Below, piece after piece: positions 36,927-40,919 of a stretch of 64,000 bases of DNA. The position numbers and the translations under genes are program-made. The stretch is from Calothrix sp. FI2-JRJ7 (GTDB lineage: Bacteria; Cyanobacteriota; Cyanobacteriia; Cyanobacteriales; Nostocaceae): positions 186,001-250,000 of the forward strand of contig JAHHGX010000091.1 of the NCBI GenBank assembly GCA_019359675.1, read 5' to 3'. Positions within the stretch are counted from its first letter, which is position 1; each line of letters begins with the position of its first letter. The notes beneath the pieces are model-generated. The model was not told the origin of the DNA, searched no databases, and saw only the letters and a program-made list of their open reading frames with translations.

Positions 36927-38726
36927 ATGAGTAATCAAATATATACAACAGATGTATTAGTCGTTGGTGGTGGAACAGGTGGAACCGCAGCAGCAATTAC
37001 TGCTGCAAGACAAGGCGCCAAAGTAGTATTAGTGAGTGAATTTGCTTGGCTGGGGGGTATGCTGACTAGTGCAGGAGTTACGGCGCCTGATGGTAACGAG
37101 CTTGCAGCATTTCAAACTGGTTTATGGGGTGAATTTTTAAGTGAGTTGCGCTTTCGGCAACCTGGAGGATTAGACAATAGTTGGGTTAGCTTTTTTAGTT
37201 ATGAACCACGCATCGGCGCCCAGATATTTGCTGACTGGGTGAATGCATTACCAAATTTACAATGGATTTCTAGATATGTACCTTTAGAGGTACTGCGTCA
37301 AGGTAACTGCGTTACAGGTGTGAAATTTGCAGATTTTACTGTTCATGCCAAAATAACCATCGATGGTACTGAACTTGGTGATTTATTAGCTTTAGGAGAA
37401 ATACCACACCGTTGGGGTTGGGAACTTCAATCAGAGTTTGGTGAAATAAGTGCCCCTATCGAATATAATTCTCTCACTAAAAAATATCCTGTACAGGCGC
37501 CGACTTGGGTAGTAGTCATGCAAGATTTTGGCGACTCTGCTCCGGAAATACCAAAAGCGCCTAATTATGATGAATCGTTATTTATTGGCGCCTGGGATAA
37601 TTATGGTGCAGAGAAGTTTATGAATTATGGGCGCCTGCCAGGAAATCGATTTATGATTAACTGGCCCCAGCAAGGTAATGATTGGGGTGTACAGGCAGGC
37701 AGATTAATCGAATCAGAAGCAAAGCGGCAGGAATTTTTACAGGAATGTTTTTGGCATAGTCAAAATTTTGCCCATTTTATTCAATCACAACTAGGGCGCC
37801 GTTACGGATTGGCGCCAAACGTTTTTCCTGAATGTAGAGACTCCATTAATGGAGTCTCTACATATAACGTAAGAACAAGTTTCGCATTACATCCTTACTA
37901 TCGCGAGAGTCGCCGTTTAATTGGTATAACAACAGTGCGTGAACAAGATATATTACCGAGGAACGGTGCTAATGCAGCACCGTTACATAAAGATGCAATT
38001 GCCATAGGTAACTACGCTAATGACCATCATTATCCTGGTATAGAGTTTCCTTTACAACCCAAATCGATTCGCTGGGGTGGACGTTGGACTGGAACACCCT
38101 TCACTATTCCTTATCGTTGTTTGGTAAGTGAGTACATTGATGGTTTTTTTGTCTGTGAAAAAAATATATCAGTATCTCATATTGCTTCTGGTGCCACTCG
38201 GCTCCAACCTGTCGTTATGAATATTGGTCAAGCTGTAGGTATGGCAGCACATTTATGTATCGAATATAATCAATTGCCGCAGTATTTACCCGTAGATAAA
38301 TTGCAAGCTGCCTTAATCGAAAATTCACATTTACCTGCTTTAATTGTGCCATTTTTTAACTTAATCCTTGAACATTCTGAATGGTTAAAATGGCAAAAAT
38401 ATTATACAGCCAATCATACAGCTTATCCAACCACTGGCATTTGTCCCAATCTTGATATATCCCAGTATTTAGACTTACATAAAAATTCAGTAAACTCACG
38501 TATAAATATCTCATGTATTGGAACTTTTCATTTTTATGGTCAGCAAGATTACGCATTTACCGTTTTAACACCGTCTGAATACGAAGGACAAACTTGGCAG
38601 CTTGTGACTTTACATCCACATATTGATTCGACACTTAAAAAGCTTGTAAACGGTGAGCAACTTCAGCTTCACGGGCGTTATAACTCAGCAGGTAACTGGT
38701 TACTAGTAGAACATATAGAAAAATAA
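36927..38726 (+). CDS. FAD-dependent oxidoreductase (PF12831 type) with an in-frame palindromic insert
   Basis: 599 residues. The FAD motif DVLVVGGGTGGTAAAITAAR is followed by VLVSEFAWLGGMLTSAGVTA, a characteristic of the FAD_oxidored (PF12831) group. Later ATRLQPVVMNIGQAVGMAA is the second FAD-contact motif. A C-terminal 100-residue extension may be a beta domain. At 37833-37862 a perfect 30-base palindrome adds ten codons (part of ECRDSINGVSTYN) just before the conserved YYRESRRLIG segment without breaking the frame. The substrate is unknown. It stops 105 bases before patX. Confidence 0.88.
   Translation: MSNQIYTTDVLVVGGGTGGTAAAITAARQGAKVVLVSEFAWLGGMLTSAGVTAPDGNELAAFQTGLWGEFLSELRFRQPGGLDNSWVSFFSYEPRIGAQIFADWVNALPNLQWISRYVPLEVLRQGNCVTGVKFADFTVHAKITIDGTELGDLLALGEIPHRWGWELQSEFGEISAPIEYNSLTKKYPVQAPTWVVVMQDFGDSAPEIPKAPNYDESLFIGAWDNYGAEKFMNYGRLPGNRFMINWPQQGNDWGVQAGRLIESEAKRQEFLQECFWHSQNFAHFIQSQLGRRYGLAPNVFPECRDSINGVSTYNVRTSFALHPYYRESRRLIGITTVREQDILPRNGANAAPLHKDAIAIGNYANDHHYPGIEFPLQPKSIRWGGRWTGTPFTIPYRCLVSEYIDGFFVCEKNISVSHIASGATRLQPVVMNIGQAVGMAAHLCIEYNQLPQYLPVDKLQAALIENSHLPALIVPFFNLILEHSEWLKWQKYYTANHTAYPTTGICPNLDISQYLDLHKNSVNSRINISCIGTFHFYGQQDYAFTVLTPSEYEGQTWQLVTLHPHIDSTLKKLVNGEQLQLHGRYNSAGNWLLVEHIEK
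37833..37862. repeat. Perfect 30-base palindrome inside a coding sequence
   Basis: TGTAGAGACTCC, ATTAAT, GGAGTCTCTACA: every base pairs with its mirror. It belongs to the TAGAGAC palindrome family found between genes at 9740, 40954, 48737 and 54114. Its length is divisible by three, so the oxidoreductase frame survives. Confidence 0.92.
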
Positions 38727-38742
38727 CAAGTATTTTGTCAAA

Positions 38743-38756
38743 GTAAAAAACAATAC
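38743..38756 (+). promoter_or_regulatory. NtcA-type binding site upstream of patX
   Basis: GTA-AAAAACAA-TAC is a perfect match to the NtcA consensus GTA-N8-TAC and lies 76 bases upstream of the patX ATG (38832) and 14 bases upstream of the TCCGGA box. NtcA is the cyanobacterial nitrogen-control activator. The same arrangement, NtcA site then DIF1 motif, is what I recall as described for patX genes of heterocyst formers. Confidence 0.75.
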
Positions 38757-38769
38757 TTTTTCCGAATCA

Positions 38770-38775
38770 TCCGGA
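38770..38775 (+). promoter_or_regulatory. DIF1-type TCCGGA box (-35 region) of patX
   Basis: TCCGGA is the DIF1 hexamer associated in Anabaena with promoters induced in differentiating heterocysts. It ends 56 bases before the patX ATG. A plausible -10 (TAAGTACT, near 38791) lies about 16 bases downstream, giving a start of transcription about 30 bases before the ATG. The hexamer alone could occur by chance; position and context support it. Confidence 0.7.
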
Positions 38776-38831
38776 TGCACTAAATAAAACTAAGTACTAG
38801 TGGATGGAGAGTTCTAAAATAAACATCTGCT

Positions 38832-39050
38832 ATGCGTACTGTCATCTCACTTTTGGTAACAACATTTTTCTTCGGGTCTCTATCGTTAGAGTGCCAAAAC
38901 AACTTGCACTCTGAGTCCGTTACTCCAGTCACAATAGCCTCAAGAGCTTCATCAAAAGGGAGACCCAAGCAACCACAACCATTTCCTCATCGTGGTAGTG
39001 GGCGCCGAAGCTTTACAGAATACTTACTCAGCACTTTTCCTGCTGTCTAA
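38832..39050 (+). CDS. patX: PatX: RGSGR-containing heterocyst-inhibitor precursor
   Basis: 72 residues. A hydrophobic N-terminal segment with a basic start (MRTVISLLVTTFFFGSLSLE) looks like an export signal. A polar Ser/Thr/Pro/Lys-rich linker follows, then PHRGSGRRSFTEYL with RGSGR at residues 54-58. RGSGR is the pentapeptide by which PatS-type signals bind and inhibit HetR. Hydrophobic N-terminus plus HRGSGR with a short tail is the PatX pattern, as distinct from PatS, where the motif is at the C-terminus of a tiny protein. Upstream NtcA and DIF1 motifs (38743 and 38770) match the promoter expected of patX. The peptide is probably exported or processed and moves between cells to restrain differentiation. 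It is monocistronic with a weak ribosome site. Confidence 0.88.
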   Translation: MRTVISLLVTTFFFGSLSLECQNNLHSESVTPVTIASRASSKGRPKQPQPFPHRGSGRRSFTEYLLSTFPAV

Positions 39051-40157
39051 GTCGTAGCATCAAGTGTACTTAATAATTTCATATCGTGTTGTAGCATTAG
39101 ATGCACGCTAAAAATATACAAGCATGTTAAAATTAACACTGCTAATACTAGCTACGTTAAAACAATAAAAGAATAAACACATAGGTTACTTACGCAATAG
39201 CTCGATATAATTCTGAGCAATATGTGATTTGTTAATCTTATGAACATATAACGTCGGAATGGCACCGACAATATCAAAGCGCGTATTACTCGCAAGTATA
39301 TTGCACTTCACTACAACACGAGTTGAGTTAACGAAACTGCATCAATACCGCTACAAATTAGTTCACACCAAAATATTTAGATTTTTAGGGCTAACCGAAA
39401 TATAAGCAATTCAAGTTGATTGCCACTAAGGGACTTAAATAAAAAAATATCCACTCATTTCTTGTGGGGTGGGCTTTAAGAATGCCCCGCCTGGATATGA
39501 AACGGGCAAGGATGCCCATTGCACAATTGCCCATTCTACAATTGCCTATTCCACAATTGCCCAACAACGCTTTAGTCTGGCAGCCTACTGCTGGACTAAA
39601 TCGCATATATATTTGGATTACATCATCGTCCAGCAGATGTCCATATCCAAAATAAATGCTATTTTGGATAAGTTTTAATATAGCAAGCAATATAAACGTA
39701 AACAATTTACGTGACTAAAAAATATAAGTAACTATTTATACTAAAATATATTTGTGTATACCCTATATAAGGTTTCACATTAAGAAATCATTAATAAATA
39801 TTATTTTATTACATTCATACGGTGATAATGCCTGTAACATGATATTATCAAGCATGTAGCTTGATTTTTTATTGTTGTAAAGAAAATAAAATATTTTTAT
39901 GTAAAAAAAGAATTAAAATTTTTGTGTTTTTTGCGACAGTTACAGTAATTTAGCGAAAAAATAGTCAAAAATAAAGAAAATATAAAATTATCACGTTATG
40001 TTAATCAATGTGTCTGTTGTAGCTCCAGTAAGATTGACTTAGTAGTTTTGGCGCCTGCGAGTCAATTGGAGCGAAGGCTGCTCGTAACTGCTATAGTTAC
40101 ACCATTGCCGTTTGCTCATAGTGAAAAAATATACGCCTAGGAGCGTCAATCAAGATT
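39051..40157. other. Long AT-rich intergenic region, 1.1 kb
   Basis: No credible gene. A cluster of short repeats at 39465-39570 includes GTGGGGTGGGC...GCCCCGCC, ACGGGCAAGGATGCCCAT and three tandem copies of ACAATTGCC(C/T)A at 16-base spacing. The stretch 39700-40010 is extremely AT-rich and probably contains the promoter of the NYN gene. A 41-codon frame on the complementary strand (39197-39322) ending IVGAIPTLYVHKIN and onward may be a relic but is too weak to call. Confidence 0.5.
39465..39572. repeat. Cluster of GGGC palindromes and ACAATTGCCC tandem units
   Basis: Two palindromic GGGC-type repeats (39465-39520) run directly into CACAATTGCCCATTCT, ACAATTGCCTATTCC, ACAATTGCCC, a decaying tandem array of three 15-16 base units. 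Confidence 0.65.
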
Positions 40158-40919
40158 ATGCAGCTGCTTCCACAACCTCGGAATAATAAAAAGTTATCTT
40201 TGAAAATACAGTCAACCGTGCAGCAAATAACGCCTTATTCAGAGATTGAATCAAAAATTGAGAGTCATGCAGAGATTACAAGTAATATAAAGCATGAAGT
40301 TGGTTACCCAAAAGTTCGCGCAGCGTCGGCTATGGAAGATTCGATTATGTCTGGAATTATCGGACTGAATAATGCTGAGAATTTTCCAGCAGTATTGAGA
40401 CGCGAGCGTCGCATGTCTAGGTCAAGCGGTTCGGCAAGTGAAGAAAAGGTAGCAATATTTATAGATGGGGCAAACCTATTTTACGCGGCAATGCACCTCA
40501 ATTTAGAAATTGACTATACCAAGCTTCTGCGTTGTCTAGTTAAACAGCGTCAGCTTTTACGCGCTTATTTTTACACCCCAGTTGATAATGGCAATGAGAA
40601 GCAGCAAGGGTTTTTATTATGGATGCGCCGGAACGGGTATCGTGTATTCACAAAGGACTTAGTGTATCTTCCTGATGGCTCCAAAAAAGCCAACATGGAC
40701 GTAGAAATAACAGTAGATATGCTGACATTGGCTAGATATTGCGACACCTTAATTTTGTTAAGTGGTGATGGTGATTTAGCTTATGCAGTCAACGCTGTTG
40801 CATACCAAGGCGTACAGGTAGAAGTAGTAAGTTTAAGTTCTATGACAAGCGAAAGTTTAATTGATGTCGCTGATAGTTATGTTGATTTAGAGCAACTGCG
40901 AGAAGAAATTCAAAAATAA
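40158..40919 (+). CDS. NYN domain protein, LabA-like (DUF88)
   Basis: 253 residues. An N-terminal extension of about 95 residues without recognised domain is followed by a NYN/PIN-like nuclease fold: VAIFIDGANLFYAAMHL (first Asp of the site), KKANMDVEITVDMLTLARYC and LILLSGDGDLAYAVNAVAYQ with the second acidic cluster. The closest named group is LabA/LabA-like proteins, known in Synechococcus for negative feedback on circadian output and in other bacteria as RNA-processing NYN proteins. The acidic residues are conserved, so RNase activity is possible. It converges with the phytochrome-cluster kinase gene. Confidence 0.9.
   Translation: MQLLPQPRNNKKLSLKIQSTVQQITPYSEIESKIESHAEITSNIKHEVGYPKVRAASAMEDSIMSGIIGLNNAENFPAVLRRERRMSRSSGSASEEKVAIFIDGANLFYAAMHLNLEIDYTKLLRCLVKQRQLLRAYFYTPVDNGNEKQQGFLLWMRRNGYRVFTKDLVYLPDGSKKANMDVEITVDMLTLARYCDTLILLSGDGDLAYAVNAVAYQGVQVEVVSLSSMTSESLIDVADSYVDLEQLREEIQK

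Follow-up and report, generated by a model that had tools for sequence, protein, structure and literature searches.

Elhai and Khudyakov reportedly described PatX of Nostoc/Anabaena PCC 7120 in 2018. HetN, an RGSGR-bearing short-chain dehydrogenase, is an enzyme-like protein of roughly 290 amino acids; RGSGR is what it has in common with the protein described below. More is on record about PatX, a cyanobacterial family whose small exported peptide limits which cells turn into nitrogen-fixing heterocysts. The export signal of PatX from Nostoc PCC 7120 is functional and is required for activity, and the protein is processed by the peptidase PatP (PMC12756182). The cleavage sites are known solely from an E. 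coli reporter, and the authors call them unconfirmed in Nostoc (PMC12756182). The hexapeptide HRGTGR binds HetR at 88 nM and abolishes HetR binding to the hetP promoter (PMC12756182). PatX overexpression blocks heterocysts, and loss of the gene has consequences in the absence of patS or the presence of combined nitrogen (PMC7761841).

PatS is likely processed in the cytoplasm (PMC12756182); it ends in ERGSGR. Most putative PatS homologues have 65-115 residues (PMC5812504). The "alternative PatS" proteins of branching cyanobacteria, with several prolines before Y/HRGSGR (PMC5812504), are counted as PatX orthologues (PMC7761841). In Nostoc PCC 7120, patS, patX, and hetR have the DIF1 motif in their -35 regions (PMC7377430), and Arg223 of HetR is needed for inhibitor binding (PMC7476756). 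The pair of HetR and PatX also occurs in filamentous species without heterocysts (PMC7761841, PMC11298460).

The patX gene and its protein

The window, a stretch of 64,000 nucleotides of Calothrix sp. FI2-JRJ7 analysed as a whole, contains a small gene that runs from ATG to TAA and encodes 72 residues: MRTVISLLVTTFFFGSLSLECQNNLHSESVTPVTIASRASSKGRPKQPQPFPHRGSGRRSFTEYLLSTFPAV. PHRGSGRR occupies residues 52-59, and RGSGR residues 54-58; R plus SFTEYLLSTFPAV follows, for a total of 14 residues. The first-pass annotation had given the coordinates, length, motif position, and tail length, and re-reading of the open frame found all of them correct. It had also proposed a hydrophobic N-terminus, which hydropathy bears out. 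Spans of 12 residues that start at residues 1, 4, 7, and 10 have means of 1.5, 2.2, 1.7, and 1.0. Spans starting at 13 to 22 are at zero or lower; those at 25 and 28 are weakly positive (0.6 and 0.3); and those from 31 to 58 are negative, with 0.9 in the final span (61).

Table 1. Features of the patX locus (positions in the window)
Feature	Position	Strand	Basis
FAD-dependent oxidoreductase (PF12831), conserved upstream neighbour	36927..38726	+	neighbourhood comparison
Conserved box CAATACTTTTT, upstream of DIF1 motif	38751..38761	+	80% mean identity over 38748-38764
DIF1 motif TCCGGA, predicted -35 element	38770..38775	+	invariant in 17/17 aligned same-family patX loci
-10-like TACTAG in conserved AGTA..AGT stretch	38795..38800	+	85% mean identity over 38792-38803; position inferred
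Conserved 25-nt leader, predicted transcription start to ATG	38807..38831	+	91% mean identity
patX coding sequence	38832..39050	+	open frame; NCBIfam NF047413 PatX 51.5 bits, cut-off 30
Hydrophobic, export-type N-terminus, residues 1-20	38832..38891	+	hydropathy; common to 35 distinct same-family proteins aligned
HRGSGR hexapeptide, residues 53-58, predicted HetR inhibitor	38988..39005	+	sequence; H before RGSGR in 31/35
C-terminal tail RSFTEYLLSTFPAV, 14 residues	39006..39047	+	tail length 14 in 24/35 distinct same-family proteins

The curated equivalog model NF047413 (heterocyst_PatX) matches the protein well above its cut-off (E 1.3e-13; Table 1), with residues 1-60 aligned to model positions 1-68 of 69. 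The match ends at residue 60, so the tail falls outside the model; Pfam yielded no match to the protein. Both the model match and the same-family alignment extend the similarity to PatX through the N-terminal half (a lack of such similarity had been named as refuting the assignment), and the PatX identity and layout proposed at first pass are upheld. The gene is, with near certainty, a clear and unambiguous member of the PatX family, and nothing counted against its membership.

The protein resembles known PatX (NF047413) in several respects: it is small; its N-terminus is hydrophobic; H-RG(S/T)GR lies near its C-terminus; its gene has a DIF1 motif; and its genome has HetR. It also shows the PatX hallmark of prolines and an H or Y ahead of RG(S/T)GR in the C-terminal part. 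Its 72 residues and RGSGR compare with 56 residues and RGTGR in PatX of PCC 7120 (PMC12756182), and it begins with MRTVISLLVTT, the Calothrix-group variant of the commoner MRAAISLLVSS. It shares the several prolines before Y/HRGSGR with the "alternative PatS" of branching cyanobacteria, and differs from these in name only, as far as the available part of PMC5812504 shows. With PatS (NF047415) it shares RGSGR, a DIF1-type promoter motif (the promoter of PatS being known from Nostoc PCC 7120), and HetR as predicted target. However, PatS of PCC 7120 has 17 residues (PMC5812504) and terminates in ERGSGR, whereas here 14 residues follow the motif, which in PatS is the last part of a very short open frame.

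In a profile search of the whole genome, the window's gene scored 50.3 bits and was the only match above the cut-off; none of 14 unrelated control genomes had a match above it. Six weaker matches (10 to 19 bits) were all below the cut-off, and a second PatX among them was rejected: 12 of the 14 control genomes also match that loosely. The best of these six weak matches is a HEAT-repeat, phycobilin-lyase-like protein that ends in PSRGSGRRT (G000:C31:336222; L009 1498-2214). Proteins of this type have RGSGR in five of the seven genomes of the genus, but RGSSR and RGGGR take its place in the remaining two, and the motif in this protein looks incidental.

The PatX model has matches in 102 of 243 genomes of the order at E 0.01, and matches above its cut-off in 89 of the 243. 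PatX proteins of family f33 (L027, L028, L030, and L031) carry 3, 3, 4, and 3 copies of RGSGR, respectively, as tandem repeats. Closer to the window, the contig scan identified orthologues with 55-97% identity in six named Calothrix or Dulcicalothrix records: Calothrix sp. HK-06 and PCC 7103 (97%); Calothrix sp. PCC 7716 and Dulcicalothrix desertica PCC 7102 (94%); Calothrix sp. NIES-4105 (72%); and a Calothrix MAG (55%). Compared with four close relatives, the patX codons show 1 to 7 synonymous and 2 to 4 amino-acid-changing differences, and none of the latter fall in the motif-bearing residues 44-65. (As a counterpoint, amino-acid and synonymous changes number 4 and 4 in one close relative, and 2 and 1 in another.)

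Tail statistics were drawn from 35 distinct same-family PatX proteins, collapsed from 53, with the window's own counted once. Fourteen residues is the commonest tail length in this sample (Table 1), and that of the window is no oddity; five residues follow RGSGR in 7/35 proteins, and 3, 8, 12, and 13 residues in one each. The residue directly after RGSGR is R or K in 34 of the 35, and the residue before it is usually H (Table 1). Eight of the other-family patX loci that were read end at RGSGR. A basic residue directly after the motif, along with a tail of variable length, fits a precursor whose tail is trimmed, and PatX may be such a precursor. The first-pass annotation had called the trimming unknown; part of the maturation route, PatP processing of PatX, is known from Nostoc PCC 7120 (PMC12756182).

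Promoter, leader, and neighbouring genes

TCCGGA, the exact DIF1 motif, lies 62 nt before the patX ATG. Altogether 35 patX loci were read, six from the contig scan and 29 of the 30 from the order-wide profile search (L038 gave no row). Of these, 23 have TCCGGA within 260 nt of the start used, and the 12 without it belong to other families. Conservation was measured only on loci that protein searches had identified. Of 23 same-family loci fetched, 17 were aligned, with the near copies L002-L005, L019, and L021 left out; the matching genome G220 is also absent. Over these 17 loci, mean identity to the majority base amounts to 58% across 38702-38735, which belongs mostly to the upstream gene's end, and to 62% in the spacer; values for the conserved elements are in Table 1. 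The box CAATACTTTTT followed by TCCGGA has one occurrence in this genome.

The predicted transcription start was placed by the 35-bp rule for the DIF1 motif (PMC7377430), and defines a short leader. In the 19 codons after the patX ATG, identity over the 17 loci is 81, 94, and 75% at the first, second, and third positions; the leader (91%) is more conserved than these third codon positions at the gene's start, as is the upstream box, and both surpass the stretch upstream. The leader pattern GAGAGTTCYNAAATARACATCT occurs in 55 of 145 family genomes, in each of them at exactly one site, with no match for the reversed control. Thirty of these 55 loci were fetched (own genome included), and a PatX open frame follows the pattern in all 30, after a gap of 3 nt in 29 loci and 6 nt in one. 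The exact pattern is absent from the other 90 family genomes; at L032, L035, and L041, patX is kept and the leader has diverged.

Candidate explanations for the conserved leader are a regulatory RNA or protein binding site, or a special translation start. By reading, no clear Shine-Dalgarno sequence can be made out in the leader close to the ATG. A structured RNA leader was considered and rejected: its fold is not significant (z +1.05 and -1.26), and there is no Rfam match at E 1 over 38700-40160. The literature search found no description of the leader sequence; an earlier one in Elhai and Khudyakov 2018 is possible.

The upstream neighbour, an FAD-dependent oxidoreductase, ends 105 nt before patX. 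It occupies this position in all six Calothrix-group loci from the contig scan, all 16 same-family loci found by profile, and all 30 found by leader (own genome included), three sets that overlap in genomes. Its identity outside the genus is 56-64%. Within the flanks examined, it stands beside patX in none of 14 other-family loci. Downstream of patX, flanks of 1.5 kb contain a NYN-domain gene, seen only within the genus.

HetR and the proposed function of patX

The first-pass annotation implied a hetR elsewhere in the genome and marked it for checking. One copy is present: its product is intact, with 299 residues (PF18460, 163 bits), matches the solved HetR chains 3qod (E 2.3e-187) and 4hri over the full length, and retains Arg223 (R223). 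The 846 bp upstream of this gene (L001, upstream of 2391, - strand) contain no exact TCCGGA, unlike the upstream region of hetR in Nostoc PCC 7120 (PMC7377430).

From HetR, the annotation had gone on to probable heterocysts. This step is insufficient by itself, because the pair of HetR and PatX is found in non-heterocystous filamentous species as well, and so alone implies no heterocysts. In heterocyst-formers that have it, an excisable nifD element splits nifD. The genome has nifD above cut-off in two pieces on two contigs (G000:C75:187433-188749 and C77:60369-60488), with the part matching the last 40 model positions on the second contig, and with TACTCCG at the break in both pieces. This is the picture expected for an excisable nifD element, which was not seen whole. 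A nifD in two pieces, as in heterocyst-formers with the nifD element, makes it likely that the source organism forms heterocysts. The locus adds an unambiguous patX, complete with promoter motif, leader, and neighbour gene, to the Calothrix group, in which heterocysts are typically terminal.

What the sequence shows is the patX gene, its family membership, the conserved promoter motif and leader, and a HetR partner in the genome; by homology, the protein may act with HRGSGR as Nostoc PatX does. The best explanation, held with high confidence, is that the gene is a patX; it would be driven by DIF1, and its product would be exported and cleaved to a HetR-restraining peptide around HRGSGR. Transcription would start from the DIF1 promoter 62 nt upstream, most likely in differentiating cells after nitrogen step-down. 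If the protein behaves as in Nostoc, its N-terminal signal sequence would direct its export, cleavage would follow outside the cytosol (by PatP in Nostoc PCC 7120), and trimming on the C-terminal side would free a peptide around HRGSGR. Such a peptide would bind HetR at the site that requires Arg223 and stop HetR from binding DNA, and cells would not differentiate out of place.

Could the open frame and its RGSGR be mere coincidence, with no gene at all? RG[ST]GR occurs once in the six frames of the window, where near 0.9 occurrences are expected (uniform codon use, own arithmetic), and further copies sit in short or unlikely frames elsewhere in the genome. RGSGR alone is therefore not significant, its frequency being about that of chance in 64 kb. 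However, the match to the curated model and the orthologues, together with a promoter motif, a leader, and a neighbour gene conserved over the family, set this frame above chance, and coincidence has next to no probability. It is also very improbable that the protein is PatS rather than PatX, that is, a cytoplasmic precursor of a peptide that moves between cells. Proline-rich H/YRGSGR proteins were once called "alternative PatS" (PMC5812504), but the same proteins are treated as PatX (PMC7761841), which makes the distinction partly one of naming. Against PatS stand the fit of the PatX model; the PatX-like layout of hydrophobic N-terminus, prolines, HRGSGR, and tail; and a separate PatS-like open frame (described below) in the place that patS has in other genera.

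Another reading accepts a true patX and gives it a different main job: restraint of HetR in vegetative growth or in other fates (hormogonia, necridia) instead of heterocyst spacing. PatX predates heterocysts, and Nostoc PCC 7120 is affected by its loss mainly with combined nitrogen or without patS (PMC7761841); in Leptolyngbya BL0902, PatX is largely HetR-independent (PMC11298460). Yet this locus retains an exact DIF1 motif, which marks genes induced in differentiating cells. A main role apart from spacing seems unlikely, if well worth bearing in mind, and the DIF1-driven precursor of a HetR-restraining peptide is the preferred account.

A possible second RGSGR precursor

The PatX identified at first pass stands, but it is not the genome's sole candidate RGSGR precursor. 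In the genome, the codon pattern for ERG[ST]GR has ten matches (three in the control), six of which have identical letters and read ERGWG. The other four were translated, and three hold the motif: a 37-codon frame in L083; a repeat inside a 731-codon frame in L087; and, in L089, a PatS-like open frame with two copies. This search for the E-preceded motif found no ERG[ST]GR in a dehydrogenase-like frame of the HetN kind. An ordinary PatS was sought through a codon pattern of RG[ST]GR plus stop and rejected: there are five matches (17 in the reversed control), and none encodes the motif.

The two-copy PatS-like open frame, MMVFFDCERGSGRVDAVMFLSDDRGSGRINTIMDTNS, has 37 codons (G000:C89:58801-58911; L089 1480-1593, L098). 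It is present in 7/7 genomes of the genus with both motifs intact, preceded by a GAGG-type ribosome site that is invariant in the seven. TCCGGA lies 155-156 nt upstream in four of these genomes, and the sequence there is one base off in the other three. Its neighbour is a dihydroorotase-like gene (amidohydrolase family), a setting in which patS is found in other genera. The same neighbour stands beside three- and four-copy open frames in g126 (L105, L106, and L107) and one-copy open frames in g146 and g150. Beside this gene, RGSGR is found in one copy (several genera), two (own genus), and three and four (g126).

The two-copy open frame is read here as a candidate patS orthologue with a duplicated motif. 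Three points tell against this reading. The NCBI PatS model (NF047415) gives it 23.9 bits, below the cut-off of 30, although its first 13 residues match the whole model. Synteny with classical patS is seen in a minority of loci only: 9 of 30 classical PatS loci have the dihydroorotase-like neighbour, and the other 21 have none within 1.5 kb. Finally, both motifs are intact, yet synonymous codon changes are not in excess; the two most distant genomes show 4 synonymous changes, and 5 and 8 non-synonymous ones, of 29 codons.

Searched against whole genomes at E 0.05, the PatS model has matches in 120 of 208 family genomes, but in none of the seven from the genus. A Calothrix-group genus in which the curated PatS model has no match is a natural place to ask what role PatX plays when PatS is altered.

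The PatX family, its motif, its promoter type, and much of its maturation route are already known, and the multi-copy patS is the more unusual find. The literature search found no description of a PatS with several RGSGR copies, though Elhai and Khudyakov 2018 may hold one; the available portions of PMC5812504, PMC7377430, PMC7476756, and PMC11298460 contain none. The conserved leader and the tandem PatS lift the case somewhat above routine.

A tentative model, to which we give slightly less than even chances, is that HetR is restrained in this genus by a pair of differently built precursors: an exported PatX with a single copy, whose conserved leader is a control element; and a cytoplasmic tandem PatS. 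The copy number in each precursor would then amount to a heritable inhibitor dose. If this is true, RGSGR copy number sets the dose much as in tandem peptide-hormone precursors. The tandem-RGSGR variants of PatS-like precursors make a link between dose per precursor and heterocyst spacing directly testable.

Tandem copies also occur in frames of quite another size. L108 (G272) has four tandem ERGTGRVNSILGEED repeats within a very large frame (at least 884 codons in the stretch), and L112 and L113 each have two RGSGR copies within very large frames (likewise at least 884 codons in the stretch).
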